Of a stretch of 30,858 nucleotides of DNA, positions 441 through 17,594 are shown in pieces. Position 1 is the first letter of the stretch; every line of letters starts with the position of its first letter. Location of the stretch: positions 1 to 30,858 of IMG/VR virus record IMGVR_UViG_3300021137_000060; one strand, written 5' to 3'. Below the pieces are notes generated by a model. It ran no database searches. It was not told the origin of the DNA and worked only from the letters and a program-made list of their open reading frames with translations. The stretch comes from a virus. Position numbers and translations under genes: made by a program.

Positions 441-538
441 TTGCACCAGCAATAATGTTGGCGTACAATTTAAAACAGTCTCAAGTATTGAAAGAACTTG
501 TGACAATATTAAGCCTGTTAATGGCAAGGTAGATTAAA
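441..538 (+). promoter_or_regulatory. Sigma70-like promoter with 5'-terminal hairpin leader (copy 2, no TTCAAC)
   Basis: The -35 is TTGCAC (441-446), the spacer is 17 bases and the -10 is TACAAT (464-469), which predicts a start near 476. A hairpin begins at 478: GTCTCAAGT (478-486) pairs with ACTTGTGAC (496-504) with one T/T mismatch. The 20-mer GGCAAGGTAGATTAAAATGG at 523-542 spans the RBS and start codon and recurs exactly at 12139-12158 before the DUF932 gene. Confidence 0.65.
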
Positions 539-1456
539 ATGGAAAAGAAAAATGTTAAGAAAATGACTGTGGCAGAAATGCTTGCAGAATTTAACCAAAT
601 CACTGGAAACACAGTTTCTAAATTTGGCAATCGTGCAGAAGCTGAAGAAAGATTAAAAGAAGCTCGACTTAATGCTTACAATAAACAATTTGAAAAAGAC
701 AAGGTGGAAGAAATGCCTCATACTCATCATGAAGCGCATGAACATGAAACTCATGCAGAAAAACAACATGAAAATCACCATCATGATTCTGAATCTCACG
801 CAGAGCATGGAAACAGCGAACATGATGGTGAAAACAAAAAAGCGCTGGAAGAAATGACTGATGAAGAAGTCTTGGCTGCTGCTGCTGAAATTGCTGAAAA
901 GGCTGAATTAACGCTAGAGGACGCTAACATTGAAGCTGCTGCTGCTGAAATTAAAGCTGGCAAAAAACGCGGTCGCCCAGCAAAAGAAAAAGCTCCAGTT
1001 GTTGAGTTGACTGATGAAGAGTTGGCTGCTAAAAAAGCCGAATCAGCTAGCAAAATCGCTGCTGGTGTGGCTAGCACGTGGAATGATGATAAGGTGCGTG
1101 CTGCAAGAAGCAAACGTTCTGGATGTATTGTTTCATTTACTAAAGATGGTAAACATCACATCCACGAGTTTGAAAGTTTTGCCAAAGCGGAAAAAGAACT
1201 GTCTTTAGTTATGAAAGATGGAATAAAAGTACGCGCAAAAATGAAATCAGAAGGTGTGGCTAAAAAGACTATTGACGGCATTGAATACACTTTTAACGCT
1301 GTTGAAATTGTCAAAGTAGTCAAAGAAAAGAAAGAGAAAAAACCAAAAAAAGAACATGAATTGCCGGACATAAAAGGTAATGTAGCTGTTGGTGTTGACG
1401 CTGAAGAATCAAACATTGAAACTGATGAAGTTTCTGGTGAAGACTTAGCTGCTTAA
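539..1456 (+). CDS. His-rich, AT-hook-containing phage protein
   Basis: A 305-residue, highly charged protein. Residues 9-45 (VAEMLAEFNQITG...F.NRAEAEERL) resemble an N-terminal domain found in various phage proteins. Residues 61-95 contain 13 histidines and many acidic residues, a likely metal-binding or disordered stretch. Residues 110-140 are Ala/Glu-rich with two near-copies of AAAAEI. Residues 142-149 (KKRGRPAK) form an AT-hook-like minor-groove DNA-binding motif. Residues 180-225 (TWNDDKVRAARSKRSGC...) recall a small C-terminal domain that often follows AT-hooks in phage proteins. The tail is Lys/Glu-rich. I infer a DNA-binding or nucleoid-associated role. It has its own promoter and a twin-hairpin region downstream. 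Confidence 0.7.
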   Translation: MEKKNVKKMTVAEMLAEFNQITGNTVSKFGNRAEAEERLKEARLNAYNKQFEKDKVEEMPHTHHEAHEHETHAEKQHENHHHDSESHAEHGNSEHDGENKKALEEMTDEEVLAAAAEIAEKAELTLEDANIEAAAAEIKAGKKRGRPAKEKAPVVELTDEELAAKKAESASKIAAGVASTWNDDKVRAARSKRSGCIVSFTKDGKHHIHEFESFAKAEKELSLVMKDGIKVRAKMKSEGVAKKTIDGIEYTFNAVEIVKVVKEKKEKKPKKEHELPDIKGNVAVGVDAEESNIETDEVSGEDLAA

Positions 1457-1465
1457 TTCCGGTTT

Positions 1466-1492
1466 ATCCCCAACTACTCTGTAGATGGGGAT
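1466..1492 (+). terminator. Hairpin after the AT-hook gene (no T-tract)
   Basis: ATCCCCA (1466-1472) pairs with TGGGGAT (1486-1492), with an inner CTAC/GTAG stem around a TCT loop. It starts 10 bases after the stop codon. No T-run follows, so it may block 3' exonucleases or act as an operator rather than as a classical terminator. Confidence 0.45.
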
Positions 1493-1543
1493 ACTTTGAA
1501 TAATGCAAATTTTCAACAATAATATTTGCATTATTCAAAGTAT
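1491..1543. repeat. Perfect 20-bp inverted repeat overlapping a -35 box
   Basis: Arms at 1491-1510 and 1524-1543 are perfectly complementary around a 13-base loop. The right arm contains the TTGCAT -35 (1526-1531) of the next promoter, so pairing or protein binding here would affect that promoter. Confidence 0.75.
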
Positions 1544-1618
1544 TGCGATACAATGCTTACCTAGACAAAGGAATTGTCTGGTAAAACTATTAAGGATTTC
1601 AACTTATATTTTGGAGAA
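1526..1618 (+). promoter_or_regulatory. Sigma70-like promoter, 5' hairpin and TTCAACTTATA leader (copy 3)
   Basis: TTGCAT (1526-1531), a 17-base spacer and TACAAT (1549-1554) predict a start near 1560. A hairpin spans 1559-1582: AGACAA/TTGTCT plus ACC/GGT with one bulged T, around the loop AGGAA. TTCAACTTATA is at 1598-1608, followed by a GGAG RBS and the ATG at 1624. Confidence 0.75.
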
Positions 1619-1623
1619 ACAAA

Positions 1624-2334
1624 ATGAACGAAAAAATTATTGCTCGTGTCAACAAATTAATTGCTTTGGCTCAAAATGCCGGAGCTACTGATGGTGAACG
1701 CGATAATGCCATGAGAATGGCTCATGCTACTCTAGCGAAATACAATTTGAAAATGGGTGATCTTCAGGACTTTACAGAAACCCCAGAAGAAAGAACTGAA
1801 TTAAACTTTGTGAATTATAATCACAAGTTCAACAGAACAATTTGCAATGCCATTGCAAAGCTTTACTTCTGCACTTGCTATTTCAAAAATACAGTTCCAT
1901 TAGAAACTTCCAATGCTAAGAAAAAATGCACTTATTTCTTTGTTGGCAAAGAAAGCAATGTATTGACTGCTAAATTAATGGCAGAATATCTGATGAAAAG
2001 TATAGAGTCAGAACGTGTTAAAACAGCGCAAGGCGTGATATTTAATATCGGTGCTGCTAATGCCATTTACTGGAGAGTTCACGACATTATCGAAAACAAT
2101 GTTGAAAATAAAGAATTCAGTGAATCAACAGCTCTAGCCATTGTTAATCTGCACAAAAGTGAAGCAGATGCTAATGATGAATTTATTAGAAACAAAGGGT
2201 TGAAACTTGAAGTTAGCAAAAACAGAAAAACTAAGATTAATGACTGGGAGTCGTTCAATAAAGGTCGTGAGTTTGGTAACAAAATTAACTTGAGTGGACA
2301 GATAGCAGGTAAGAAACAAGCTGCTATAGAATAG
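1624..2334 (+). CDS. DUF2786 domain protein
   Basis: A 236-residue protein. Its N-terminus (about residues 3-45: KIIARVNKLIALAQNAGATDGERDNAMRMA... ending AKYNL) matches the DUF2786 pattern found in many phages and bacteria. The rest (F/Y-rich centre, then a helical segment with TALAIVNLHKSE) resembles the C-terminal region that usually accompanies it. Its function is unknown in the family as I know it. GGAG lies 8 bases before the ATG. It has its own promoter and leader and ends in a 13-bp hairpin. Confidence 0.8.
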   Translation: MNEKIIARVNKLIALAQNAGATDGERDNAMRMAHATLAKYNLKMGDLQDFTETPEERTELNFVNYNHKFNRTICNAIAKLYFCTCYFKNTVPLETSNAKKKCTYFFVGKESNVLTAKLMAEYLMKSIESERVKTAQGVIFNIGAANAIYWRVHDIIENNVENKEFSESTALAIVNLHKSEADANDEFIRNKGLKLEVSKNRKTKINDWESFNKGREFGNKINLSGQIAGKKQAAIE

Positions 2335-2340
2335 GTGTGA

Positions 2341-2373
2341 ATACAGCGTTAAATATTGTGTTTAACGCTGTAT
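2341..2373 (+). terminator. 13-bp hairpin after the DUF2786 gene
   Basis: ATACAGCGTTAAA (2341-2353) pairs perfectly with TTTAACGCTGTAT (2361-2373) around a 7-base loop. It starts 6 bases after the DUF2786 stop. There is no T-tract, and it overlaps the -35 region of the next promoter. Confidence 0.55.
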
Positions 2374-2437
2374 ACTGTAAAATAATTATCTCTAGGATAC
2401 TAAGTGCACTAGAGATAAATTCAACTTATATTCGGAG
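2356..2437 (+). promoter_or_regulatory. Promoter, 5' hairpin and TTCAACTTATA leader (copy 4)
   Basis: A TTGTGT-like -35 (2356-2361), a 16-base spacer and TAAAAT (2378-2383). A 10-bp hairpin follows: TTATCTCTAG (2386-2395) pairs with CTAGAGATAA (2409-2418). TTCAACTTATA at 2420-2430 and CGGAG lead to the ATG at 2445. Confidence 0.65.
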
Positions 2438-2444
2438 TTATAAA

Positions 2445-2780
2445 ATGGGATTTGAACCTAAGATTTACACAGAGTTTAATGACATGTGGTTTGACAAGCA
2501 TGATGGTGACAAGAATAACGGTAGCAATGTTTTTGTTGATGGTTTGCCGGTTTTCGGTTTTTTCATGTGCATACCTTTTAGAGCTTTTTATTTGAAAAAC
2601 GGTTCATGGCGATGCGGACAACCAATAGTCACTATTAGTGAAGAAGCTGTTGAAGCTTATAATGCCTGTAAAGAGTGTGAAGAAAGGACTAGAGCGAAAG
2701 CTTTTGATGAAAGAAAAGTTGTACCAATCAACATCAAAAGTCTTGAATCGTGGTCTGATGAAGATTTGCTAGGTAGATAA
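2445..2780 (+). CDS. Hypothetical protein
   Basis: A 111-residue protein without a family I recognise. The open frame extends back to 2337, but that part covers the hairpins and promoter; the ATG at 2445 follows a good CGGAG. A Phe/aromatic-rich middle (VFGFFMCIPFRAFYLKNGSWRCG) precedes a helical acidic tail containing a C-x2-C pair. The start (MGFEPKIY) resembles that of the first gene in the window. Confidence 0.65.
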   Translation: MGFEPKIYTEFNDMWFDKHDGDKNNGSNVFVDGLPVFGFFMCIPFRAFYLKNGSWRCGQPIVTISEEAVEAYNACKECEERTRAKAFDERKVVPINIKSLESWSDEDLLGR

Positions 2781-2827
2781 AACTATTGCCATGGACGGCT
2801 TTTTTAATTTAATGAAATAGGTGATAT

Positions 2828-3220
2828 ATGAAATCGTTATCAATAGTGATGGGTGCAGTTGACAAAAGATGTAGACACTGGAATAAAATTGTCAGAAAAA
2901 ACGATGATATTCCAATGCCGGATAAAGTGACATCTAGCAAGAATATTCCTACTGAATATTTGCAAGATGGATGCGAAGAATTGTTTGAAGGCGATTTTTG
3001 GCTTGAAGGTGAAGAAAAGCACCACCGGAATCCAAGAGGTTGGTGCTATAAAATACACTGGATGGATAGTGAAGGTAAATTGAAATCTGTTAAGCCTGGT
3101 GGAGAAGTTAAAGCTAGACTTAAAGAAGCTGGATTGCATTTTGAATTCTTACCTGGTAGTGGTGAAGTAGCTGCAATGGTAAGAATTATACATGCTTATA
3201 GACAGGGTATCGAATTGTAA
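2828..3220 (+). CDS. Hypothetical protein
   Basis: A 130-residue protein of unknown function. The RBS AGGTGA precedes the ATG. The protein is rich in Trp, His and charged residues (EGEEKHHRNPRGWCYKIHW) and ends with a predicted helix (EVAAMVRIIHAYRQG). It is the last gene of the left rightward block and is followed by a clear terminator. Probably cotranscribed with the gene at 2445, which ends 47 bases upstream. Confidence 0.65.
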   Translation: MKSLSIVMGAVDKRCRHWNKIVRKNDDIPMPDKVTSSKNIPTEYLQDGCEELFEGDFWLEGEEKHHRNPRGWCYKIHWMDSEGKLKSVKPGGEVKARLKEAGLHFEFLPGSGEVAAMVRIIHAYRQGIEL

Positions 3221-3248
3221 CTACGATTCGATTTAAGCTACAAAAAGA

Positions 3249-3285
3249 AAAACCCGCTAGTAATACCTTACTAGCGGGTTTTTTA
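3249..3285. terminator. Bidirectional Rho-independent terminator
   Basis: AACCCGCTAGTAA (3251-3263) pairs with TTACTAGCGGGTT (3268-3280) around a 4-base loop. T-rich sequence follows on the right and A-rich sequence precedes on the left, so it can end rightward transcription from 2445-3220 and leftward transcription from 10222-3379. Confidence 0.9.
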
Positions 3286-3378
3286 TTGTCTGTATGCCGC
3301 TTAAAATCGTTTTTTTAGCTATTAATTAGCCTTAACAATACTTATTAAATCCCCACATAGTCCAAAAACATTGCATCG

Positions 3379-3426
3379 CTAAAGCGCCAACAAATCAGAA
3401 TGTTTGCAAGCGCAATTTTTACTCAT
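3379..3426 (-). CDS. Possible 15-aa peptide
   Basis: A tiny frame (MSKNCACKHSDLLAL) starting with an ATGA overlap on the 40-aa gene upstream. The translational overlap is the only support; it may be chance. Confidence 0.2.
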   Translation of the reverse strand: MSKNCACKHSDLLAL

Positions 3427-3545
3427 TTTCCACACTCCATTCCACAATGCCAAATTTCAACTTTCTTCAATCGTTCATCAATAGATGTAACGGCAATAAC
3501 AATCCAAACAACCATTAACAAAATAGCCCAAAGTCTCATAATCAT
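3423..3545 (-). CDS. Small single-pass membrane protein
   Basis: A 40-residue protein. Its ATG overlaps the stop of the upstream gene by ATGA, and GGGGA lies just before it; a second in-frame ATG at 3539 has better RBS spacing. One hydrophobic helix (LWAILLMVVWIVIAV) is followed by a short charged tail with two Cys (HCGMECGK). The helix and coupling support a real gene. It could be a small inner-membrane effector; the family is unknown. Confidence 0.5.
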   Translation of the reverse strand: MIMRLWAILLMVVWIVIAVTSIDERLKKVEIWHCGMECGK

Positions 3546-3724
3546 TCCCCAGTTAAACAATGTTTTACAATTCTGTCTGTAATAATATCCTCAATTATTT
3601 CAGCTGCGCTGACTTTTAATTCAGCCGTAATAAAGCCACTTTCAAAGTCAATTTTACCATTAACAATACCAAGTTCAATTACAGATTGTAAATCAACCAA
3701 TGGTGTAACATATACTTTAATCAT
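3542..3724 (-). CDS. Small hypothetical protein
   Basis: A 60-residue acidic protein (MIKVYVTPLVDLQSVIELG... ending IVKHCLTGE), unrecognised. Its start overlaps the stop of the Lar-like gene at 3724 and its end overlaps the 40-aa membrane gene, so the three appear translationally coupled in a leftward operon. Confidence 0.55.
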   Translation of the reverse strand: MIKVYVTPLVDLQSVIELGIVNGKIDFESGFITAELKVSAAEIIEDIITDRIVKHCLTGE

Positions 3725-4167
3725 TAATTTTTACTCCAAACGATTTTTCTTTCAGTGCCACAACGATGGCAAACTTTAATGCCTCTTGAGTAATACACTC
3801 TGAATGGCCCACATTTTCCACAAGTTCTTTTATTCCATTTATCAATAGCACAACGCTTATTCTCTTCACTACTTAGTTCACCAATAACTTTTGCTTCAGA
3901 ACAACAAACAGCAACAGAACATCCAGTGCAATTAACAAACCATAAATTTTCTGCACCATTTACCAAAACAGCCTTGCTATTGCAAAATGGGCATGGTTTT
4001 AATTCTTCTGATTCGTGCTGTATCTGTTTTGTTTTTTCACTATAAAGATTGCAAGCATAATTTTCAGATACAACATTGGCGTTCCTTTTATTTCTGTCAA
4101 ATGCTTTATTAAATATTGAATTCATATTTTTAATTTCACCAACATTGTTTACCAAGCAATCACCCAT
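3724..4167 (-). CDS. Lar-like restriction-alleviation zinc-ribbon protein, N-terminus probably interrupted
   Basis: A 147-residue protein. Residues 57-114 match the Lar pattern: LKPCPFC, then W-x-V-x-C-x2-C, then AIDKWNKR. Lar-family proteins modulate type I restriction-modification in favour of phage DNA, so a similar role is inferred. A second zinc ribbon follows (Cys 116, 119, 133, 136). Residues 1-45 (GDCLVNN...ENYACNLY) look like the rear half of another Cys-rich domain whose front half (CKNCHF) is just upstream in another frame, after a homopolymer. The start at 4167 with upstream GGTGG is usable as it stands. Confidence 0.6.
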   Translation of the reverse strand: MGDCLVNNVGEIKNMNSIFNKAFDRNKRNANVVSENYACNLYSEKTKQIQHESEELKPCPFCNSKAVLVNGAENLWFVNCTGCSVAVCCSEAKVIGELSSEENKRCAIDKWNKRTCGKCGPFRVYYSRGIKVCHRCGTERKIVWSKN

Positions 4168-4350
4168 TTTAATTCCACCAATAGAATCTCCAGTTACTTC
4201 AAAAAGTGACAGTTTTTACATTGATTTCTAACTTCCATCAATTCAGGTCGTGACCGTATATACTCTTCAAATTTATGGACTACCTATATAAACTCCAGTT
4301 TCATTTGTAATTCTATATTTATTTAGAGCTTTTGGTTGGTTACAATCCAT
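4168..4350 (-). pseudogene. Frame-broken small gene upstream of the Lar-like gene
   Basis: An ATG at 4350 with GGTGG upstream opens a 25-residue frame (MDCNQPKALNKYRITNETG...) stopping at 4273. The next frame continues sensibly from there (HKFEEYIRSRPELMEVRNQ then CKNCHFLK) to a stop at 4194. Removing one base of the GG pair at 4277-4278 would join the first two parts. Adding one base to the A5 run at 4201-4205 (T5 on the coding strand) would join the second part to the Lar-like gene. This could be decay, assembly errors in homopolymers, or frameshifting. The 25-aa frame alone could also be a real small gene. Confidence 0.4.
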
Positions 4351-4519
4351 AATGCCACCATTTAGGTAATTCATCTTCAACAGCTATCCATTTATATTGT
4401 TTTTCAAGTCTTTCAATCTCATCCATAGAGTCATTAATAATCTCTTTGAAAATAGCATAGTCGCCATGTTCAGGTAAAGATTTAACCATAGACCTAACTT
4501 GTTGTTTTATATCATTCAT
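4340..4519 (-). CDS. Truncated DUF551-like small protein
   Basis: A 59-residue protein starting with an ATGA overlap on the upstream gene's stop. A helical N-terminal half precedes KWIAVEDELPKWW, which resembles the opening W-I-x-V-x-D-x-LP motif of DUF551 domains. The protein ends 7 residues after ELP, so the DUF551 body is missing. It overlaps the ATG at 4350 by 11 bases. Confidence 0.5.
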   Translation of the reverse strand: MNDIKQQVRSMVKSLPEHGDYAIFKEIINDSMDEIERLEKQYKWIAVEDELPKWWHYGL

Positions 4520-4953
4520 AATAAAACTTCACCCCTGTTTAGTTTGTCAGCTAGTATTTGTGCGTTTTTCTCACTGTTAAAATATATAGCTAATGGATGG
4601 TTAGCTTTACCAACACATGCTACATCCCATTCACCATCTATAATTACAAGATGGTAACAAAAATCAACATTGGCATAGTCAGGTTCAACTTCATCTCTGT
4701 AAGCCAATAATCTGTTAAAAACACGCATGGCATCACGGGCTTTTTCTGCGGCTTCTTTGGTTTTTCTTTCTACTCCAAATGATCTTGTAAAGCAAGATGA
4801 TGAATCGTGATACGTTTCACCTGTTGGTCTGATATAAAAATTACCACCTTCAGGCTCCCATGTTGCAACAACAGGATTCTTTAATTTTTCTATATCAGTC
4901 GCTATTTCAGCAGCAAATTCAGCAATCTTGTTTTCTAATTCTTCAATAGTCAT
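4516..4953 (-). CDS. Hypothetical protein (start uncertain, possible extension to 5175 or 5182)
   Basis: Taken from the ATG at 4953 (AAGGTGTGA upstream), this is a 145-residue acidic protein (MTIEELENKIAEFAAEI...) that I do not recognise. The frame is open upstream to an ATG at 5175, adding 74 residues with six Cys. A still better start with AAGGAG at optimal spacing is the ATG at 5182, but its frame stops after 8 codons at a run of six A (5159-5164). With one A fewer it would join the long frame. Either the upstream part is coding and frame-broken, or the gene starts at 4953. Confidence 0.55.
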   Translation of the reverse strand: MTIEELENKIAEFAAEIATDIEKLKNPVVATWEPEGGNFYIRPTGETYHDSSSCFTRSFGVERKTKEAAEKARDAMRVFNRLLAYRDEVEPDYANVDFCYHLVIIDGEWDVACVGKANHPLAIYFNSEKNAQILADKLNRGEVLL

Positions 4954-5184
4954 TTCACACCTTTTAGTTTTTCTTAAATTTCTGCAATGTGGCGTATGCT
5001 TAATACATTCACATTGGACATTTTTAATATTTTGACAGTTTTCTGTTATTTTAAAAGTAAGTGCAATATCAATTGTTGATGTTATTGTACTTACAGTATT
5101 GACAACTGTGTTCCATCTTTCATTAATTAGCGCAATGGCAAATTGCTGTGCTATATTATTTTTTGAAGTTTTCATAAATCATTT

Positions 5185-5457
5185 TTAACTCCTTATTAAT
5201 TTGAACCGTCTACCTTTGGGCGATTGACCATTTACAGTGCCATTTACTTTAAAGCCAAAATTTTTGCATCCGCTGAATTTAAACAAAATATAATACAGAT
5301 TGCTAACAATCATGTTTTCAAAATCAACCGATTTTTTCTTTCTGACTATAATTCTATCTTTGTGTTTTTCAACAATTTTAGCTTTCTTATTCCATCTCAT
5401 TTGTCTAAATGACAATGGTTTTCTTTTTCGGTTTATTTTGCCAACTGAAACTTTCAT
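5185..5457 (-). CDS. Basic hypothetical protein
   Basis: A 90-residue, strongly basic protein (NRKRKP, RKKKS, KGRRFK), suggesting nucleic-acid or ribosome contact, but there is no family I recognise. It begins one base after the stop of the HTH gene at 5459, so it belongs to the same leftward operon. Confidence 0.55.
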   Translation of the reverse strand: MKVSVGKINRKRKPLSFRQMRWNKKAKIVEKHKDRIIVRKKKSVDFENMIVSNLYYILFKFSGCKNFGFKVNGTVNGQSPKGRRFKLIRS

Positions 5458-5458
5458 A

Positions 5459-5860
5459 TTATTTTCTCAAGTAAAATTTTTGTCTCTCAGCATTTATCTT
5501 ATCAATTTTTACTTCTTTATTGATTAAAAGATTTTCCATTTCAACTTCATCAAACATTTTTAATCTGCCAACTTTTCTTGCAGGATTTAATCCAAATTTG
5601 TGAATTAACTGACAAATGTATGTTTCAGAAAGAGAAAATTTGTCGCTGGCTTGTTTAATTGATAACATTCCCTCGACATTTTTTTCATACATTGACATTA
5701 CTTTTTTGATGGTTTCTTCATCATATTCAAAAATGGTGTAATTTTTCTTAACGATAGACCGTGCAGGTTGAATATCTAGCTTTCTGATGCGTTGATAAAC
5801 GATATGATACTTAATTCCGTATTTGGCAGAAAAATCTCTTATATTAATAATAGCCATCAA
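5459..5860 (-). CDS. Putative DNA-binding protein with two HTH-like segments
   Basis: A 133-residue protein. Two segments have helix-turn-helix character: about residues 5-35 (IRDFSAKYGIKYHIVYQRI) and about 66-100 (LSIKQASDKFSLSETYICQ). Both resemble MerR/excisionase-type winged helices, each followed by a reading like PAR. It overlaps the end of the primase gene by 4 bases. I infer a transcription or replication regulator. Confidence 0.6.
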   Translation of the reverse strand: MMAIINIRDFSAKYGIKYHIVYQRIRKLDIQPARSIVKKNYTIFEYDEETIKKVMSMYEKNVEGMLSIKQASDKFSLSETYICQLIHKFGLNPARKVGRLKMFDEVEMENLLINKEVKIDKINAERQKFYLRK

Positions 5861-8067: not shown

Positions 8068-8097
8068 AAATAAACTCACAAATAAAACAGCTATAAA

Positions 8098-8169: not shown

Positions 8170-8180
8170 AATTAAACGGG

Positions 8181-8405: not shown

Positions 8406-8420
8406 ATGAAACTCCTTAGA

Positions 8421-10222: not shown

Positions 10223-10291
10223 TGTTTCTCCTTTAAGTTGAATTAATCAGCAAAAGCCAATCAGCAGCACGACGCTACAGAAATAATTATA
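10223..10291 (-). promoter_or_regulatory. Leftward promoter, 5' hairpin and TTCAACTTA leader (copy 5)
   Basis: On the minus strand the -10 TATAAT is at 10291-10286; no good -35 was found. A hairpin begins 8 bases later: GTAGC (10278-10274) pairs with GCTGC (10268-10264), with one G-T pair around a 5-base loop. TTCAACTTAAA is at 10242-10232 and GGAG follows. This drives the replication operon away from the repeat region. Confidence 0.65.
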
Positions 10292-10640
10292 CTCGCATAA
10301 ATTAAAAAAATAAAGTTAATTTTACACGTTATTTAAAAATAAATTATCTATATATAACACGGATTAATCAAGCTTAAAAATAGCACTTAAACACTTATTT
10401 TTTAATTTGTAATACATTTGTATTACGTCCGTGTCCGTGTTCGTCCGTGTTATATATAACCAAGAATCAAGTTAAATAAAATAATGTAAAATAATACAGG
10501 TTATTTAATATAGTTATATAAGCGTTATATAAGTAACACGGTTCAACACGGACTCGACAAATTCCGTGCTATTTTATCAACAAAAAACAAGTACAAAATA
10601 ATAAAAATAATCTTTACTTTTAAAATAAAAAACAGGAAAA
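10292..10640. other. Candidate replication origin or operator array: CACGG boxes and inverted repeat
   Basis: No gene is visible in the 460 bases between the divergent genes. Seven CACGG/CCGTG boxes occur: forward at 10357-10363, 10536-10541 and 10546-10552; reverse at 10428-10434, 10434-10440, 10444-10450 and 10563-10568. A perfect 15-bp inverted repeat joins TATATATAACACGGA (10349-10363) to its complement at 10444-10458. GTTATATAAG is repeated in tandem at 10513-10522 and 10524-10533 (11-bp period, about one helix turn). The rest is almost pure A/T. Iterated boxes beside an easily melted tract, between divergent replication operons, suggest an origin; a repressor or activator array is the alternative. 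Confidence 0.6.
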
Positions 10641-10677
10641 TATAAACCGCTATTAAATTATTCAACTCAAAAAGGAA
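10641..10677 (+). promoter_or_regulatory. Rightward promoter with partial TTCAACT leader (copy 6)
   Basis: A TATAAA -10 candidate is at 10641-10646. TTCAACT at 10661-10667 is followed by an AAGGA RBS and the ATG at 10685. No clear -35 or hairpin was found. Confidence 0.4.
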
Positions 10678-10684
10678 AAATAAA

Positions 10685-10921: not shown

Positions 10922-10927
10922 AAAGAA

Positions 10928-11881
10928 ATGTCAGTAATAATTGGTTGTGGATTAGCCGGTTTGATTGCTGCTAATACAGTTTTTCAAGACGCAATGATTT
11001 TTGAAGCTCAAAAAGAAAATGAGTTAAAAAAGCACAAAGGTATTTTAAGATTCAGAAGTTCAAAAATAGGTGATGCACTTGGGATACCATTTAAAAAAGT
11101 CACTGTACACAAAAACATTTATAGTGAAGGAAAACTTTATGACACTTGCAGCATAAGATTGGCAAATCTTTACAGTCAAAAAGTTTTAGGCGGTAAAATT
11201 AGCGACAGGTCTATTTGGGATTTAAAAACAGTTGAAAGATGGATTGCACCGTGTGACTTACAGGAAAGATTAATTGAAAGATGTTACAGCAGGATTTATT
11301 TCAACTCTCCTGTTGACAACTTCAAACAATTTGAAAATAACACTATCATTAGCACAATGCCATTGCATGTAAACTGCAAACTAGCTAATATAAATCTGGA
11401 TTTTAAATTTAAAATGTTTAAAATAATGGTGTTAGAATTTGAAATACCAGATTGCAATGTTTATCAAACAATTTATTTTCCAGATGAATTTTTGGAATTT
11501 CCAAACTATGAAGAAAAAAGCCAAATATACAGAGCTTCAATAACTGGTAATAAAATGATTATTGAAGCAAAAGCTTTAACAGCTCCTTCTTGGACGCAAA
11601 TTGAAATTGTTTTGAAAGCTTTTGGTTTGGACGTTGAAGAAATACTTAACTTGCAAATTATTGAAAAAGGCTTTGAAGAGTCAACGCAAGGTAAAATTGA
11701 AAATATTAATGACAATGTAAGACGTGCTTTAATCGGAAAGCTTACTGATGATTGTAATGTTTTCAGCTTAGGAAGAATGTCTATTTGGAAAAATATTTTG
11801 TTGGATGATGTTATGCAAGATATTTACCAGATTAAAAAGATGATTGAAAGTGATTATTATTCTATGAGGTTATTAAGATGA
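10928..11881 (+). CDS. FAD-dependent oxidoreductase-like protein
   Basis: A 317-residue protein. It begins SVIIGCGLAGLIAAN, a GxGxxG dinucleotide-binding Rossmann start, followed by an acidic residue at the end of strand 2 (MIFEAQ), as expected for FAD binding. NTIISTMP near the middle resembles the second nucleotide-contacting strand of amine-oxidase or UDP-galactopyranose-mutase-type flavoproteins. SLGRMSIWKNILLDDVMQDI near the end resembles the C-terminal FAD motif. The substrate is unknown. Its place beside ThyX and the replication genes makes nucleotide or DNA-base chemistry possible, but this is inference. Confidence 0.7.
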   Translation: MSVIIGCGLAGLIAANTVFQDAMIFEAQKENELKKHKGILRFRSSKIGDALGIPFKKVTVHKNIYSEGKLYDTCSIRLANLYSQKVLGGKISDRSIWDLKTVERWIAPCDLQERLIERCYSRIYFNSPVDNFKQFENNTIISTMPLHVNCKLANINLDFKFKMFKIMVLEFEIPDCNVYQTIYFPDEFLEFPNYEEKSQIYRASITGNKMIIEAKALTAPSWTQIEIVLKAFGLDVEEILNLQIIEKGFEESTQGKIENINDNVRRALIGKLTDDCNVFSLGRMSIWKNILLDDVMQDIYQIKKMIESDYYSMRLLR

Positions 11882-12054
11882 GAAAAGATTGGCGTGATGA
11901 ATATTACATTATGATAAATAATGTGTTGCAAGAAACAACAAATGATTGGGAAAATGAATTTTGTAAATCTGTTGAAGTTAGGCTTAAAAAAGGCTATTCT
12001 TTAACTGAAAGGCAAATTAAAAAGCTTGAAGAACTCAATGAGAAATACAGTTAA
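11878..12054 (+). CDS. Small hypothetical protein
   Basis: A 58-residue charged protein whose ATG overlaps the stop of the FAD gene (ATGA). It ends GYSLTERQIKKLEELNEKYS, a helical pattern common at the ends of small phage replication-region proteins. The coupling and composition support a real gene; function unknown. Confidence 0.6.
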   Translation: MRKDWRDEYYIMINNVLQETTNDWENEFCKSVEVRLKKGYSLTERQIKKLEELNEKYS

Positions 12055-12062
12055 AAATATAC

Positions 12063-12146
12063 TTGTTTTTCTGCATTTTTCTGTTATTATTATTCCGTAG
12101 TCTTTACTACATATTCAACTTATATTTTTAGCCCACTGGGCAAGGT
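12063..12146 (+). promoter_or_regulatory. Promoter, 5' hairpin and TTCAACTTATA leader (copy 7)
   Basis: TTGTTT (12063-12068), a 16-base spacer and extended -10 TGT-TATTAT (12085-12090). A hairpin starts 7 bases later: GTAGT (12097-12101), loop CTTT, ACTAC (12106-12110). TTCAACTTATA is at 12114-12124. A second hairpin, GCCC-ACT-GGGC (12131-12141), abuts the RBS AAGG and may control access to it. Confidence 0.75.
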
Positions 12147-12154
12147 AGATTAAA

Positions 12155-13144
12155 ATGGCACATGAAATAGATTTAAGCACTGGCAAAGCAGCAATGGCAT
12201 TTGTTGGAAGTCGCAAAGAAATTTGGCATGGTTTAGGTCAAGAATTGACAGATGATGCTGATTTAGATGTTTGGCGTGTAGAAGCTGGTATGGATTGGGA
12301 AGCGTTAAGTAGTCCTGTTGCTTATATGACTAATAATCCTGGTCGCCATTATTACACTGGAAAACGTGTTTTGTTTAGAGCTGATAATGATTATCCTCTA
12401 GGCATTGTATCCGAAAGATACAACATAGTTCAACCTAAAGAAGTTCTTGAATTCTTTAGAGATTTAACAGAATCGGCTGGTTTTAAAATGGATACTGCCG
12501 GTGTACTTTTCGGTGGTAAAAAACTTTGGGCTTTGGCTAAAGTAGGCGAATCCGTTAAAATTGGTGGAGTTGATGAAATTAAGCCATATCTATTAGTTGG
12601 AACAAGCCTTGATGGTAGCATGTCAACAGTTGCCCATTTTACATCGACCAGAGTTGTTTGTAATAACACTCTGCGTATGGCTATTGGTGGAAAAGGGCAA
12701 AACGCTAAAATTAGAACTCCACACAGTCAATTCTTTAATGTTGACTCTGTAAAAAGTAAACTTGGTTTAGCATCAGACGTTTGGGAAAATTTTGTTAATG
12801 AATGTGAATCATTAACAAAGATTAAGTTGAGTCGTGATGAAGCCATAACTATCGCTGCTAAACATTTGAACATTCCTAATGATGAGGACTTGTTGCCTAA
12901 AGAGCTAGTTTTAACTAGCAAACCATTAAATAATATCATTGAGTTGTTTAGTGGAAAAGGAATTGGCTCTGATTTAAAAACTGCTGATGGAACTGGTTGG
13001 GGCTTAGTTAATGCCTTTACACAATGGGCAGATTACGATGTAATCAATTTACGAACAGACAAAAGCCGTGCTATTGATAGAGCGCAATTTGGCGACAGAG
13101 CGACTTTAAAAACAGATGTCGCTAATGCAATATTAGAGCTGTAA
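12155..13144 (+). CDS. DUF932 family phage/plasmid-like protein
   Basis: A 329-residue protein. It matches the DUF932 (TIGR03299-type) pattern: an N-terminal WHGLG, YNIVQPKEVLEFFRDL near residue 90, GGKKLWALAKVG, then DEIKPYLLVGTSLDGSMST and TRVVCNNTLRMA, and a C-terminal GWGLVNAFTQWADYD. Such proteins are common on phages and plasmids and have no settled function. It has a promoter and leader of its own and shares an exact 20-base RBS/start block with the AT-hook gene at 539. Confidence 0.9.
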   Translation: MAHEIDLSTGKAAMAFVGSRKEIWHGLGQELTDDADLDVWRVEAGMDWEALSSPVAYMTNNPGRHYYTGKRVLFRADNDYPLGIVSERYNIVQPKEVLEFFRDLTESAGFKMDTAGVLFGGKKLWALAKVGESVKIGGVDEIKPYLLVGTSLDGSMSTVAHFTSTRVVCNNTLRMAIGGKGQNAKIRTPHSQFFNVDSVKSKLGLASDVWENFVNECESLTKIKLSRDEAITIAAKHLNIPNDEDLLPKELVLTSKPLNNIIELFSGKGIGSDLKTADGTGWGLVNAFTQWADYDVINLRTDKSRAIDRAQFGDRATLKTDVANAILEL

Positions 13145-13150
13145 AGCTCG

Positions 13151-13209
13151 CTATTAAACGATAATTTTTTAATAGTAGGGCAGCTTAGATTTTAAGTAAT
13201 CTAAGCTGC
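13151..13209 (+). promoter_or_regulatory. Twin hairpin with overlapping -10, leader of the 13245 operon
   Basis: CTATTAAA (13151-13158) pairs with TTTAATAG (13168-13175), and TTTAAT within the right arm is a 5/6 match to a -10 box. Seven bases later a perfect 12-bp hairpin starts: GCAGCTTAGATT (13180-13191) with its complement at 13198-13209. No -35 is seen. It either ends the DUF932 transcript or forms the 5' end of the next one. Confidence 0.5.
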
Positions 13210-13244
13210 AATCTAATTTTAGCTACCTTATTTAAGGATTTTAT

Positions 13245-13397
13245 ATGCTAATAGAAATAAAATTTAAGATTAAACAGAATTATGCATGCTCTGAATGTGG
13301 AGCAATACGATTAGGTGGTCAAATCACTAAAACATTTATCAGTGTTGAATCATTTAATGATTTGATTGAGTCAAACAAAATTGTCACTAAGGAATAA
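13245..13397 (+). CDS. Small zinc-knuckle-like protein
   Basis: A 50-residue protein with AAGGA before the ATG. One C-x2-C pair (ACSECGAI) sits near the N-terminus. The stop falls just before the thyX start, and the last codons carry the thyX RBS (AAGGA), suggesting coupling. Function unknown. Confidence 0.55.
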   Translation: MLIEIKFKIKQNYACSECGAIRLGGQITKTFISVESFNDLIESNKIVTKE

Positions 13398-13398
13398 A

Positions 13399-14157
13399 AT
13401 GAAAGCTAAATTGGTAAGGTACACAACAGATGCACTTGAACTTTTGTTGGAGACTAAAAATACTCGTTTGACTTCTGATGATGATGTCGCTTTATGGAAT
13501 GATGAAAAGAAAATGGAACATCTTGAATACATGCGAAACACCATAAAGTCTAGCTGGGAATTTGTTGATTACGTTTTCAAGGTTGAAGTTGTAACAAGAG
13601 TTTTTACCCACCAGCTAGTTAGAACTAGAACTGGCAGTTATGCTCAACAGACAATGAGAGCTTGTGATGTTAGAGAACAAGAAATTATCACACCACAATC
13701 AATTCTTGATAATCCAGACATGCAAACTATTTGGTCTAAAGCGATTGAATCTGTAAAATCTGCTTATGGTGAACTTGTCGATATTGGTTGTCCAATGCAC
13801 GATGCGCGCGCTTTATTACCGCAAAACATAACAACTTCAATATATGCTAAGTTCAACCTTAGAACTTTAGCCGATATGGGTAAATTAAGACTCTGCACTA
13901 GAACGCAATCTGAATACCAAGATGTATTCAGAGAAATGCGTGAAGAAGTTATTTTAGTTCATCCGTGGACTGAGGAATTTATACAGGTTCAATGTGTTAG
14001 TGATGGCACTTGCGCTTTTCCAAGCTACGGGAAAAAAGAGTGTCCAGTGTATTTCCCAGAGCTAGATAGAACAGAAGCAAAGAAAATTGCTAAAGAAAAA
14101 TTCTGGTCTATTAGATATGAAGCAAAACCAGTAGCAAAAAATGGAAAAACAATGTAA
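13399..14157 (+). CDS. thyX: Flavin-dependent thymidylate synthase (ThyX)
   Basis: A 252-residue enzyme that would convert dUMP to dTMP using methylenetetrahydrofolate, FAD and NADPH. The ThyX signature region is at about residues 70-87 (THQLVRTRTGSYAQQTMR), with the usual first Arg/His replaced by Thr-His. The second conserved block, about 138-185 (ARALLPQNITTSIYAKFNLRTL then LCTRTQSEYQ), is intact. The ATG at 13399 has AAGGA upstream; the open frame extends back to 13366 but overlaps the preceding gene. It pairs functionally with Dcd at 16964 to raise dTTP supply. Confidence 0.95.
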   Translation: MKAKLVRYTTDALELLLETKNTRLTSDDDVALWNDEKKMEHLEYMRNTIKSSWEFVDYVFKVEVVTRVFTHQLVRTRTGSYAQQTMRACDVREQEIITPQSILDNPDMQTIWSKAIESVKSAYGELVDIGCPMHDARALLPQNITTSIYAKFNLRTLADMGKLRLCTRTQSEYQDVFREMREEVILVHPWTEEFIQVQCVSDGTCAFPSYGKKECPVYFPELDRTEAKKIAKEKFWSIRYEAKPVAKNGKTM

Positions 14158-14333
14158 TGATAAAACAAATTATTATTAAAATTGAAAACTGTTATCAATG
14201 TAAATATGCACAGTATGAACCAGCCTTGCAACATAGCATAACTTGTGAATTGTCAAAGAAAAAATTTAATACTAAAACTGAAAACAATCCACCTGATTGG
14301 TGCGTTCTTGATGATTTTAAGGAATTAAAATGA
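14157..14333 (+). CDS. Small four-Cys phage protein
   Basis: A 58-residue protein with NCYQCKYA, a later Cys (ITCEL) and PPDWCVL near the end. This C-x2-C ... C ... PDWC layout is a recurrent small zinc-binding phage family of unknown role. The ATG shares one base with the thyX stop, and its own stop overlaps the next ATG (ATGA). Confidence 0.65.
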   Translation: MIKQIIIKIENCYQCKYAQYEPALQHSITCELSKKKFNTKTENNPPDWCVLDDFKELK

Positions 14334-14761
14334 GAGTCCAAATTTTCGACCTAGACAACTGTATCAGCAATGATATGTCAAAAACTGGTGATGAACGATA
14401 TGAAAAATATCACCAGCAATGCCACAAAGATAGACCAGCAAATACTCATTATATCAATGAGATTTACGACACCATCATCTTTACAGCACGACCTGAAAAG
14501 TATCGACCTGAAACTGAAAGATGGCTTGATAAAGTTGCTGGAATTAGAGAAGTAAAAGCTTTGTTGATGCGACCTTATGGAAACATTTTAAAATCACCAG
14601 ATTTAAAAGAGTTTTACTTAGACCAACTATTTGACCAATTCGATATTCTTCAAAGAGACATCGTTTGCGCTTACGATGACCGTTGGGATGTTATCGAAAT
14701 GTACAATCGTAATGGTGTTGTTTCTGAAATTTTAAAAATTCACAATTTAACTTATAAGTGA
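14330..14761 (+). CDS. HAD-superfamily phosphatase
   Basis: A 143-residue protein with all HAD motifs: motif I FDLDN (Asp7, Asp9), motif II FTARPE (Thr52), a Lys near residue 88 and motif IV AYDDRWDVIEMY (Asp116, Asp117). The short, cap-poor form resembles the phosphatase half of T4-type polynucleotide kinase and other phage HAD enzymes. The likely substrate is a nucleotide or a nucleic-acid 3'-phosphate; the sequence does not say which. ATGA overlap with the gene before. Confidence 0.85.
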   Translation: MRVQIFDLDNCISNDMSKTGDERYEKYHQQCHKDRPANTHYINEIYDTIIFTARPEKYRPETERWLDKVAGIREVKALLMRPYGNILKSPDLKEFYLDQLFDQFDILQRDIVCAYDDRWDVIEMYNRNGVVSEILKIHNLTYK

Positions 14762-14768
14762 GAATTTT

Positions 14769-15113
14769 ATGGAACATTATGAAAGCGTACCTTTAGTAAA
14801 AATCAAACCATGTCCACCTGAAGGTAAAAATGCTGGTGACATTTTGTTAGAAATGGTTGAAACGTACAAAAATAGGTCAGAAACATATGGTGGAAATTTT
14901 ACGCAAGTTCGTGATTTAACTAGGGTTTTATTTCCTGATGGTGTTTTGCCAGAAATTGTTGATAAAGCGCACTGGTATATATTTGAAATTATACTTGGAA
15001 AGATTTCTAGATTTGCAAATTCTGGTCTTGAACATATAGACTCTGTTCACGACATAGCAGTTTATTGTGCAATCATTGAAGAAATATTGTCCAATAAGGA
15101 GAAGTTTAAATGA
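14769..15113 (+). CDS. DUF6378-like phage protein
   Basis: A 114-residue protein with AGDILLEMVETYKNRSETYG, then RVLFPDG, then IILGKISRFAN and HIDSVHDIAVYCAIIEEIL. This pattern matches the DUF6378-type phage family that lies among nucleotide-metabolism genes. The His/Asp spacing recalls all-alpha NTP pyrophosphohydrolases, which is inference. Its stop overlaps the next ATG. Confidence 0.75.
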   Translation: MEHYESVPLVKIKPCPPEGKNAGDILLEMVETYKNRSETYGGNFTQVRDLTRVLFPDGVLPEIVDKAHWYIFEIILGKISRFANSGLEHIDSVHDIAVYCAIIEEILSNKEKFK

Positions 15114-15922
15114 TTATTGCAATCTGCGTCCCAAGTAATAATATTGAACATGCTGATAAATATTTGTTCTCAGAAAGAAGCTTATCCAACATAGAACCAT
15201 TATTTTTAAAAGGCAAAGTTTGCTTTTCAATAGTTGCACAGGGTGATGATTGGAAAAAATATTCATCCATAATTGAAACAAGACTTAAATCATTTAATAT
15301 TGATTATAGAATCTTGTTTCAAAATGAAACTAATCCATGTCAGATATTTAAGTTAAGACATCAATCATTTTACAATTTCAGAACTGCAAAATATTTTATA
15401 TCTGTTGATGACAATATTCAATTTTCTGAAGGAACTAAAAAATTCCCAGAAAATTCAGGTTATCGTTATGGTCAATGCATTGATTATTTAGAAAATAATC
15501 CTAATTGTGGAATTGTTAATTGTGTTGGAAGTCTTGGTGGCAATCTTGATAAGTATGAAATAAAAAGATACGACATCGGCAAAGAAATTGCTACCGCAAA
15601 AGGATTGGTCATTAGAAATGTTTGTGGTGGACGCTTATTCCCTAGTGAAACACTTGATTTCTATGGGTGCAGAGAAGAATTAATTATGGCTTTGAATTTT
15701 AACAGATTAGGTTATTATACAGCTAAACAGTTTAATAACCCGACCAAACATAAAGAGCTTCACAGTTGGAAAAGTGTGCTTGGTCAAGAAGTTAGCGAAA
15801 AAGACAATAATAATCTTCATAATGTTGATTTAACAAATGAATATGCTTTAAAATGGATAAGACAAAATTTTGATGAAAAATATGTCTTTAGCAAAACCAG
15901 AATAATCAATAAATATATATAG
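15110..15922 (+). CDS. Putative GT-A-fold glycosyltransferase
   Basis: A 270-residue protein with ATGA overlap on the gene before. Its N-terminal half has the alternating strand/helix layout of a GT-A nucleotide-sugar domain, and the predicted metal site is ISVDDNIQF (Asp100-Asp101), a DxD-like motif. Later blocks are GIVNCVGSLGG and ATAKGLVIRNVCGGRLFP, then DFYGCREELIMALNFNRLGY, resembling the acceptor-side acid and ED-type helix of family-2-like enzymes. No signal peptide or membrane helix is seen, so it should act in the cytoplasm. Lying between nucleotide and polymerase genes, it may glycosylate modified DNA bases; a lipopolysaccharide-modifying role is the alternative. Confidence 0.6.
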   Translation: MIIAICVPSNNIEHADKYLFSERSLSNIEPLFLKGKVCFSIVAQGDDWKKYSSIIETRLKSFNIDYRILFQNETNPCQIFKLRHQSFYNFRTAKYFISVDDNIQFSEGTKKFPENSGYRYGQCIDYLENNPNCGIVNCVGSLGGNLDKYEIKRYDIGKEIATAKGLVIRNVCGGRLFPSETLDFYGCREELIMALNFNRLGYYTAKQFNNPTKHKELHSWKSVLGQEVSEKDNNNLHNVDLTNEYALKWIRQNFDEKYVFSKTRIINKYI

Positions 15923-15929
15923 GATAAAA

Positions 15930-16472
15930 ATGAGAGTTGCAATCATAGATACAGAAACAACTGGCTTACTATTGCCATCAACAGCACCATTAGAAAAACA
16001 GCCGAAAATAATTGAGCTTGGAATTGTAATTGTCGATAGTGATAGTCAAAAAATAATCAGTCAATATAATTGGTTGATTAATCCTGGTGATTTACCACTT
16101 AGTAAAGAAATCACCAAAATAACAGGAATCAAAACCAGTGACCTTGAAGACCAACCAACTTTTAAAACATTGTTGCCAGCAATTAAAGCTGCAATTAGCC
16201 AGTGCGATGTTTTAATTGCTCATAATGCTGGTTTTGATGTTGGAATGTTAAAAAATGATTTAAAGCGTTGTGATTGCGTTGATTTTCCATGGCCATCAAA
16301 AACTATCTGTTCAGTTCAAGAGTATACAAGTCGCTTTGGACATAAACCAAATTTGAAAAAACTTTATGAATCTGTTTTTGGCGTTCCACTTGAACAGACA
16401 CATCGAGCTATTGATGATGCTATGGCTTTGTATGAAATCTTGAAAAAAGATGGATTTTTTACTTTACTATGA
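15930..16472 (+). CDS. dnaQ: DnaQ-like 3'-5' exonuclease (DEDDh)
   Basis: A 180-residue proofreading-type exonuclease. Exo I is IIDTETTG (Asp7, Glu9), Exo II is HNAGFD (Asp103) and Exo III is THRAIDDA (His158, Asp163), the full DEDDh set. It most likely supplies proofreading for the C-family polymerase at 17595, which carries no exonuclease of its own. GGAT lies upstream of the ATG, and the stop overlaps the 20-aa membrane peptide gene. Confidence 0.93.
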   Translation: MRVAIIDTETTGLLLPSTAPLEKQPKIIELGIVIVDSDSQKIISQYNWLINPGDLPLSKEITKITGIKTSDLEDQPTFKTLLPAIKAAISQCDVLIAHNAGFDVGMLKNDLKRCDCVDFPWPSKTICSVQEYTSRFGHKPNLKKLYESVFGVPLEQTHRAIDDAMALYEILKKDGFFTLL

Positions 16473-16531
16473 TTTTACTAGCTTTAATAGTGGTAATCAT
16501 ATTTATCATTTACAATTTAGGTGAATTATGA
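16469..16531 (+). CDS. 20-aa hydrophobic membrane peptide
   Basis: A 20-residue peptide, almost entirely hydrophobic (ILLALIVVIIFIIY), starting with ATGA on the dnaQ stop and ending with ATGA on the next start. Overlaps at both ends and a pure transmembrane composition argue that this very small gene is translated. Confidence 0.5.
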   Translation: MILLALIVVIIFIIYNLGEL

Positions 16532-16953
16532 AAGAAACAATAAAAGACTCTCCAACTGGTAAAAAATTTGCTGAAGGAAAGCACAAACGTGGTGTTGGTG
16601 GAAAGTTCGTTCCAAATCCAAGTAAAACAAAAGCTGACAGTTTCAAAAAAGAAAACACAGAAGAAAAACCACCAGAAAGAGCCACATTTAATAAATCTGA
16701 TGAAAAAGGTCACAATACTGATTTAGGCGGTGAAAATGTTGAATCTGGCGGTGATTTAGTTGATATTTTCTGCAAAGCAAATGGCTTTAAAAAAATAACG
16801 TCAAAAGGTGAAAATGACATTTTAAAGCGTGGTTCTTATAATGTCAGCTACAATTCAAAAACAAGAAGGTGGACACTTACTAAAAGCGGTGAAACTTTAA
16901 AAAGTGGCTTTGGTCTAACTAAACTAGGCAATTATTTAAAAGCAAATCCATAA
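16528..16953 (+). CDS. Hypothetical protein with disordered basic N-terminus
   Basis: A 141-residue protein. Residues 1-75 are Lys/Pro/Gly/Glu-rich and probably disordered. Residues 76-141 form a compact domain (DLVDIFCKANGFKKI then YNVSYNSKTRRWTLTKSGETL). It is unrecognised and may be a DNA- or protein-binding accessory factor. AGGTGA lies before the ATG. Confidence 0.6.
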   Translation: MKETIKDSPTGKKFAEGKHKRGVGGKFVPNPSKTKADSFKKENTEEKPPERATFNKSDEKGHNTDLGGENVESGGDLVDIFCKANGFKKITSKGENDILKRGSYNVSYNSKTRRWTLTKSGETLKSGFGLTKLGNYLKANP

Positions 16954-16963
16954 GGAGAAAACA

Positions 16964-17506
16964 ATGTTATTATCACATAATAGATTAGTTGAGCTTGTTG
17001 AAGCTGGCGTTATTAATGCAGAAAAAGAAAATATAAATGGTTCTAGCATAGATATAACACTGCACAAAACTGTTATGGTCGAATGGTTAGACCAAGAAAA
17101 TCAATTCATTGATTTAAGCAAAAAGCAAAATATCCGCATGTTAAAGCAAAATATCGGTGAAAATGGATTCATGTTAAATCCAGACCAATTCATTCTTGCT
17201 TGTTCAAATGAAATTTTTAATTTGCCAAATAATATCAGCGCAGAGTATAAGCTTAAAAGTTCGATGGCTAGAAATGGCTTAGAACATCTTAACGCTGGTT
17301 GGTGCGATGCCGGTTGGACAGGAAGTCGATTAACACTTGAATTAAAAAATATGACTCAAGAACATACTTTAATTCTCAAAGAAGGAATGAAAATTGGTCA
17401 AGTTTTATTTTTTGAACATGAACATGTACCGGATGATTTTAGTTATGCAATAAAAGGACGGTACAATGAACAACGCGAAGTAACAGCAAGTAAAGGCATT
17501 AAATAA
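16964..17506 (+). CDS. dcd: dCTP deaminase
   Basis: A 180-residue enzyme that would convert dCTP to dUTP and ammonia. Family motifs are NGSSIDITLH (26-34), KSSMARNGLEHLNAGW (98-113), WTGSRLTLELKN with the catalytic Glu at about 126, and GRYNEQREVTASKG near the end, matching the nucleotide-binding tail of Dcd. A strong AGGAG precedes the ATG. No dUTPase is visible in the window, so it may come from elsewhere in the genome or the host, or this may be a bifunctional form. Downstream, dUMP would feed ThyX. Confidence 0.93.
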   Translation: MLLSHNRLVELVEAGVINAEKENINGSSIDITLHKTVMVEWLDQENQFIDLSKKQNIRMLKQNIGENGFMLNPDQFILACSNEIFNLPNNISAEYKLKSSMARNGLEHLNAGWCDAGWTGSRLTLELKNMTQEHTLILKEGMKIGQVLFFEHEHVPDDFSYAIKGRYNEQREVTASKGIK

Positions 17507-17531
17507 GCTGTTATTAGCGGTTAAAAACAAG

Positions 17532-17590
17532 TAAAATATAACAACAGGTAATTAATTACCTGTTGTATTCAACTTATAATTAATAAAGGA
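17532..17590 (+). promoter_or_regulatory. Promoter, palindromic 5' hairpin and TTCAACTTATA leader (copy 8)
   Basis: A TAAAAT -10 is at 17532-17537 with a poor -35. A perfect 26-base palindrome follows (17541-17566; half-site ACAACAGGTAATT). TTCAACTTATA is at 17568-17578 and the RBS AAAGGA leads to the ATG at 17595. This controls the DNA polymerase operon. Confidence 0.65.
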
Positions 17591-17594
17591 TTTT

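Follow-up and report, generated by a model that had tools for sequence, protein, structure and literature searches.

Several genes of IMG/VR virus record IMGVR_UViG_3300021137_000060 (30.9 kb, perhaps a fragment, of a virus of bacteria; the whole stretch is referred to here as the window) are preceded by a composite leader, in which a hairpin beside a -10-like promoter box is followed by a short AACT-containing motif, a ribosome-binding site (RBS) and the start codon. Across a clade of related viruses, what persists is the short AACT core, the RBS and a hairpin near the promoter whose sequence varies; the exact 11-mer that a preliminary description of the window had treated as the unit of selection is not shared, the relatives having the AACT core instead. 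The same order of parts occurs in the gene 10 (phi10) leader of phage T7, and we consider it slightly better than an even chance (roughly 0.5) that these leaders represent convergent, expression-boosting 5' untranslated regions of the T7 gene 10 type.

The 11-mer, TTCAACTTATA, occurs on the plus strand at positions 5, 1598, 2420, 12114 and 17568, with a variant, TTCAACTTAAA, at 10242-10232 on the minus strand and a partial copy, TTCAACT(CAAA), at 10661, all at the coordinates first recorded. Only 0.06 exact copies would be expected from first-order Markov sequences. With gene starts taken from a simple in-house caller that favours RBS-like sequence, all five exact copies lie no more than 50 nucleotides (nt) upstream of a predicted start, positions which account for 3.3% of the sequence; the word is therefore not as common in coding sequence as in leaders. 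Equal frequency in the two had been named beforehand as an outcome that would refute the element, and this check does not refute it. When up to two mismatches were allowed, the window contained 33 matches compared with a shuffle mean of 29.07, and because the excess vanishes at this setting the signal resides in the exact word. The gap from the end of the 11-mer to ATG measures 15, 15, 14 and 16 nt in four copies, close to the 15-17 bases given previously, with 30 nt before the start at 12155 and 9 nt for the variant at 10242. Leaders carrying the motif precede the DUF2786, Pam3_gp32-like, DUF932 and DNA polymerase III alpha-type polymerase genes, together with three short open reading frames (ORFs; 31, 2445 and 10685). 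Other window genes encode a prim-pol, an SNF2-type helicase and a thymidylate synthase, and tail or structural genes occupy 27.7-29.9 kb on the minus strand, with no exact 11-mer before these minus-strand structural genes. From this absence and from the nature of the genes served, the leader genes may be expressed early.

The best-scoring -10-like box in every leader was picked blind to structure, and the stretch from box to motif was folded and compared with dinucleotide shuffles. A hairpin exceeding the shuffles was identified in five of six testable window leaders (p<=0.013). The starts of these hairpins lie about 2-7 nt past the -10-like box, compared with the 3-8 bases given previously. 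If transcription is initiated 6-7 nt after the box, as the established rule has it, the hairpin arms would span or start at the predicted 5' end of the transcript. The parts of the window leaders, with shuffle p values for hairpins and Shine-Dalgarno (SD) sequences where relevant, are:

5..15, plus strand: 11-mer TTCAACTTATA of the ORF-31 leader, its upstream part lost at the window edge
1549..1554, plus strand: -10-like box TACAAT of the 1624 leader, with -35-like TTTGCA at 1525 and a spacer of 18
1557..1584, plus strand: hairpin TTACC(t)AGACAA / TTGTCTGGTAA of the 1624 (DUF2786) leader, p=0.013
1598..1608, plus strand: 11-mer of the 1624 leader, with SD GGAG at 1613-1616
2386..2418, plus strand: hairpin TTATCTCTAG / CTAGAGATAA of the 2445 leader, p=0.003 (-10-only scoring) or 0.007 (-35/-10 scoring); its -10 is ambiguous, TAAAAT at 2378-2383 or TATACT at 2371-2376
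2420..2430, plus strand: 11-mer of the 2445 leader
10264..10278, minus strand: hairpin GTAGC / GCTGC of the Pam3_gp32-like gene leader (start 10222), p=0.013, following TATAAT (10291-10286); a second, G-U rich hairpin lies at 10263-10244
10232..10242, minus strand: variant TTCAACTTAAA, running into SD AAAGGAG
10661..10667, plus strand: partial TTCAACT of the 10685 leader, no hairpin
12097..12110, plus strand: hairpin GTAGT / ACTAC of the DUF932 gene leader, p=0.013, following TATTAT (12085-12090)
12114..12124, plus strand: 11-mer of the 12155 leader, ATG 30 nt away
17541..17566, plus strand: perfect hairpin ACAACAGGTAA / TTACCTGTTGT of the DNA polymerase gene leader, p=0.003, following TAAAAT (17532-17537)
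17568..17578, plus strand: 11-mer of the 17595 leader

Folding the 10685 leader from its -10-like box to the motif gave a minimum free energy of 0.0 and no hairpin. Within the span 441-17594 originally assigned to the design, nothing of the element was found at 441-1500, where the leader of the ORF at 539 lacks the 11-mer. A terminator scan detected no sense-strand terminator-like site at the window leaders, with 3 T in the 8 nt after each stem; the 17541-17566 hairpin is terminator-like on the minus strand only. Three other identities were rejected: a -10 promoter element for the 11-mer, which is too near the SD; a sense-strand terminator, which would need a U-tract; and a boxB-type protein site, the stems being unrelated.

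Also identified near these leaders were perfect inverted repeats that abut or overlap the predicted promoters of the 1624 leader (1493-1510 / 1524-1541, 18 bp arms) and the 2445 leader (2345-2353 / 2361-2369, 9 bp arms), possibly serving as operators or as terminators for the genes before them. Between the divergently oriented genes 10222(-) and 10685(+), the region 10223-10684 contains repeated ACACGG / CCGTGT (10357, 10536, 10546; 10429, 10435, 10445) and TATATATAACACGG stretches, and may be an operator or origin. A second repeated leader segment, GGCAAGGTAGATTAAAATGG, lies at 523-542 and 12139-12158, where it takes in the RBS and the start codon of ORFs 539 and 12155; AGGTAG is enriched upstream of genes.

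A megablast of the 5-20 kb part of the window against a phage collection returned no match, and relatives were collected through the polymerase. The window polymerase query returned 13 loci, one being an overlapping contig 99.97% identical, and a search with a polymerase alignment returned at least 80 loci, some already known; eleven relatives were read across whole contigs, giving 12 clade records including the window. The leader layout extends to relatives with about 60% identical DNA polymerase and guanine-cytosine (GC) contents of 34-57%. Words of the AACT type rank with the most enriched ones upstream of genes in seven of the 12 records (window, G002, G006, G011, G012, G014 and G017), the enrichment being weak in G008 and G016 and not detected in G010, G015 and G018, of which G015 has single look-alikes. 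Over the 12 records, AACT(A/C/T)A was observed 86 times upstream of genes compared with 33.6 expected. Each genome repeats its own version of the motif, and these versions vary from one genome to the next (TTCAACTTATA, TTCAACTTAA, AACTTAGAATG(AAAGG), AAACTCAAAACTAAT, AAAACTCAA, AACTTAGAACTGGAG, AACTGAAGAACTGGAG), AACTTAGAA being another version repeated by a relative. Counted after each genome's motif had been selected by enrichment, copies are located in leaders in 5/5 cases in the window, 3/3 in G002, 3/3 in G014, 8/10 in G006, 5/6 in G011 and 3/4 in G017, with weaker placement for the short words of G012 (2/5) and G016 (2/4). In IMG/VR, AACTTAGAACTGGAGAA was found in 13 stretches, ten times in leaders, two of those ten being G014 and G017 themselves. 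The polymerase tree places the window with G011 and G012 (99/99), while G002, G006, G014, G016 and G017 together with G015 and G018 form a second supported group (96/98). Given this tree and the spread of the motif, the AACT core is either older than the two groups or of more than one origin, and some members of the second group have lost or altered it.

Promoter and hairpin arrangements of individual relatives were also noted. At 21218-40325 (minus strand) of G011 (L016) are six similar cassettes of promoter, hairpin and AACT triplet, whose stem shows wobble and paired changes. At start 28389 of G012 (L017), TATAAT lies inside a stem-loop, AAGCCCCGGTATAATATCGGGGCTT, directly before the AACT motif, with the look of a terminator-promoter composite; near-identical palindromes, TCTATAAATTTATAGA, flank several G012 leaders, including a region near 22000.

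For the clade-wide hairpin comparison with -35/-10 scoring, 48 leaders were considered; one truncated leader and 12 with an upstream gene less than 40 nt away were excluded, G002 17974 (one of the 12) was restored by hand, and after removal of two near-duplicate G011 leaders 34 remained, from eight records. Hairpins reaching p<0.05 were found in 18 of these 34 leaders compared with 15 of 95 control starts (p=6e-6), and with -10-only scoring in 17/33 compared with 12/96 (p=4e-6). Removal of four terminator-like leaders, chosen by eye for 3-5 T in 8 nt (a soft mark, 3 being found in several of the retained leaders as well), left 14/30 (p=9e-5, -35/-10 scoring), and the relatives alone without such cases gave 9/24 compared with 14/90 controls (p=0.0014). 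At a promoter score of at least 10 the figures are 13/22 and 4/29 (p=3.7e-5); an earlier fixed 32-nt test gave hairpins in 34% of 35 leaders and 11% of 99 controls (p=4.5e-4); and the window alone, with few controls, gave 5/6 and 1/5 (p=0.063). A hairpin is thus common, not obligatory, in AACT leaders.

Position is likewise retained. In a profile that kept at most three G011 leaders, pair-opening probability peaks 8-12 nt after the -10 box and falls below controls from about nt 17. Arms begin 6-7 nt past the box in G002 (CATAAT-tcgttca-CGGTC..GACCG), G016 (GATAAT-agtctta-CGGTC..GACCG), G017 (GATAAT-actgtta-CGGTC..GACCG) and the window (TATTAT-tattcc-GTAGT..ACTAC), single examples not all being significant (G002 31070, p=0.17; G017 45963, p=0.15). 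In a biased list of 17 hairpins picked by eye, 114 of 117 stem pairs are Watson-Crick and 2 are G-U, with 15 distinct stem sequences; a MAFFT alignment of the six G011 leaders gaps the stem. The proposal that hairpins of unrelated sequence keep a promoter-proximal position ahead of motif and RBS therefore holds beyond chance in both the window and its relatives.

Orthologous genes also carry the core. In the 45 nt before the start, AACT is present at Pam3_gp32 homologues in 8/10 records and at DUF932 homologues in 7/8 (the G016 DUF932 case, with AACT 7 nt from ATG, is weak), against a background of 12-27% of random 45-nt windows. These homologues are only 38-56% identical to the window's proteins, so recent copying is not behind the shared AACT. 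Among named-phage homologues of these two marker genes, five of six lack an AACT leader, and the sixth, in Acinetobacter phage MD-2021a, has AACT between SD and ATG. The DUF932 homologue of phage DSL-LC04 (L216) follows TATAAT and a GC hairpin (GCGGGA..TCCCGC) at the predicted start, with no AACT; the 5' hairpin may therefore be wider spread than the AACT motif.

The preliminary description did not recognise the composite as anything known, having missed the T7 gene 10 leader, in which a hairpin at +1 (GGGAGACC..GGTTTCCC) is followed by TTTAACTTTA, AAGGAG and ATG. Both share an AACTT core in an A/U-rich open stretch, and in the window TTCAACTTA(T/A)A stands beside SD-like GGAG, AAGGA or AAAGGAG, similar but not identical to the T7 TTAACTTTA enhancer. 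Unlike those described here, the T7 leader uses a T7 RNA polymerase promoter and serves a late capsid gene; the present leaders precede replication-type and unknown genes, are many per genome, and have the core without the T7 flanks. The T7-type promoter TAATACGACTCACTATA gave 0 matches at up to three mismatches, so that the layout would work like the T7 leader without being its established homologue. In the titles and abstract openings listed by searches of an open-access library, we found no description of a phage leader combining a hairpin with AACT.

If the leaders act as in T7, they are probably transcribed from host-type (sigma70-like) promoters, and the transcript would start at or next to the hairpin, leaving a base-paired 5' end that should hinder 5'-end-dependent decay by RppH/RNase E or the host's equivalent. 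A 5' hairpin is reported to impede RppH conversion and shield mRNA from 5'-tethered decay (excerpts of PMC3997798), and the T7g10 stem-loop to raise reporter output 1.5- to 3-fold in Cupriavidus necator (excerpts of PMC6146998). The phage hairpins resemble the stabilising stem-loops of the ompA and papA type in lying at the predicted 5' end with free sequence and kept position, and differ in having an AACT motif beside the RBS as a partner and in recurring along a phage genome. The self-folded hairpin would leave the AACT(T/C)A motif and the SD region open, and AACT(T/C)A may then enhance translation by helping to load the 30S subunit. In support, the region from motif to start is unpaired at 0.62 compared with 0.50 in controls (p=1.5e-5), and shuffling the hairpin segment lowers this openness slightly, to 0.60 (p=0.003). 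In excerpts of PMC8748333, the T7 enhancer still raises translation after its position relative to the SD is changed, pairing with 16S 458-466 is described as unsupported, ribosomal S1 is proposed as partner instead, and the mode of action is called unsettled. As the carrier genes are replication-type and unknown, the likely purpose would be a high yield of early proteins.

Several observations weigh against this interpretation. Sixteen of the 34 non-redundant leaders, 10685 of the window among them, have no significant hairpin (p<0.05), so the design is not present phage-wide in every such leader. The openness of the region from motif to start is partly built in because the motif is A/U-rich. 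Transcription starts, and with them an exactly 5'-terminal hairpin, are predicted from -10-like boxes, not mapped; a generic promoter scan showed no excess over shuffles (4 vs 4.0, 11 vs 11.3, 1 vs 1.7) and coincided with one of six scanned leaders (TTTGCA-18-TACAAT, 1525-1554). The bases flanking AACT vary between genomes, and in the Pam3_gp32 leaders of G006 and G014 AACT follows an SD-like AAAGGA and lies 8 nt from ATG, a position between SD and ATG that is unusual for an upstream enhancer. When the polymerase was used to look for a host, a single match (28%) came up, in a Bacilli metagenome-assembled genome, and no host was assigned.

The strongest rival, which we regard as doubtful and which the present data do not separate from the enhancer reading, is that an RNA-binding protein, encoded by the phage or the host, recognises AACT and thereby switches the translation of a gene set in the manner of T4 RegA, the hairpin only presenting the site or stabilising the mRNA. 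The core is short, often doubled, and found on either side of the SD, and its versions agree within genomes and differ between them, as would suit such a site. According to excerpts of PMC3014915, RegA binds unstructured A+U-rich sites at about 30 mRNA translation starts, a likeness to the short unstructured motifs near the start codons of many, probably early, mRNAs here, although the motif differs and a hairpin stands in front. No RegA-like protein was identified, no specific search having been made, and a regulator alone would leave the hairpin beside the -10 box unexplained. Furthermore, T7 shows that such a motif can work without a phage protein. It is used in uninfected E. coli (excerpts of PMC8748333).

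Alternatively, the dyads might act as DNA, being repressor operators that overlap the start, with AACT part of the promoter or operator. Perfect dyads do occur at promoter starts, and further palindromes flank promoters (1493-1541, 2345-2369), but a sequence-specific DNA-binding protein would not allow 15 distinct stems among 17 hand-listed hairpins, and AACT lacks symmetry and is located past the predicted start, making this explanation improbable. Slightly more so is the spread of promoter-leader cassettes by duplication and recombination, with no special RNA function, as for the PeSLs of T4-type phages. The G011 cassettes, several nearly identical from -35 to ATG, and the G012 TATAAT inside a GC-rich stem-loop would fit; in the window, however, the 11-mer is the same from copy to copy but the hairpins and promoters around it are unrelated, and recent copying would have kept both. 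PeSL stem-loops are terminators, whereas those of the window have no sense-strand U-tract. What the leaders have in common with PeSLs is the pairing of a stem-loop with an early host-type promoter at several places in the genome (excerpts of PMC4503421). It is very unlikely that early transcripts begin with a put- or nut-like antitermination element: the motif follows the hairpin, contrary to boxA-boxB order, the hairpin is single, short, free in sequence and directly before a gene start, and Rfam covariance models gave 0 matches to the window at gathering scores. Its appeal lies in the hairpin at the transcript start, HK022 put RNA being a cis element of this kind (excerpts of PMC9378689).

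The exact element of the window is not a general phage feature, since the 11-mer followed by GGAG and ATG was found in 23 IMG/VR stretches compared with 28 for the reversed 11-mer. Among these 23 stretches, seven (L019, L022, L027, L028, L031, L039 and L040) form one related group with TTTCAACTTATAATAGGAG and weak folds upstream; these TTTCAACTTATAATAGGAG-N-ATG leaders, apparently of one lineage, have a small ATGG..CCAT dyad upstream. AACTTAGAATGAAAGG was found in 14 stretches, three being the G006 contig itself; of the other 11, four lie within 50 nt upstream of a called start and seven elsewhere, and we considered none of them a leader of comparable kind. Across 24 more distant loci, AACT(A/C/T)A was counted 33 times upstream of genes compared with 25.6 expected (hand-made sums), with L112 standing out (6 vs 1.4). 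Among the best 40 of 1318 records, the named phages closest by polymerase (39-41% identical) are Luteibacter Pluto, Xanthomonas Carpasina, Escherichia ECML-117 and Pseudomonas E79; observed and expected counts are 2/1.2, 2/1.5 and 3/2.6 in Pluto, Carpasina and ECML-117, respectively. Elsewhere in the window, 3724-4167 (minus strand) weakly matches a Lar-like restriction alleviation protein (phrog_599, E 1.3e-8) and is a possible counter-defence gene.

A broader and somewhat less probable proposal than the RegA-like site itself is that the clade possesses a post-transcriptional regulon, in which a trans-acting factor recognising AACT(T/C)A in hairpin-capped leaders controls early-gene translation and co-evolves with the motif; such co-evolution would explain why the motif has a version specific to each genome and yet a single conserved core. 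Recombinant expression is routinely boosted with the T7 gene 10 leader, and an apparently independent leader of the same layout, present at several genes per genome and across GC contents of 34-57%, provides natural replicates that separate the selected parts, a hairpin beside the promoter and an AACT core, from those that drift. For this poorly known phage clade, the leader also serves as a marker for probable early genes.

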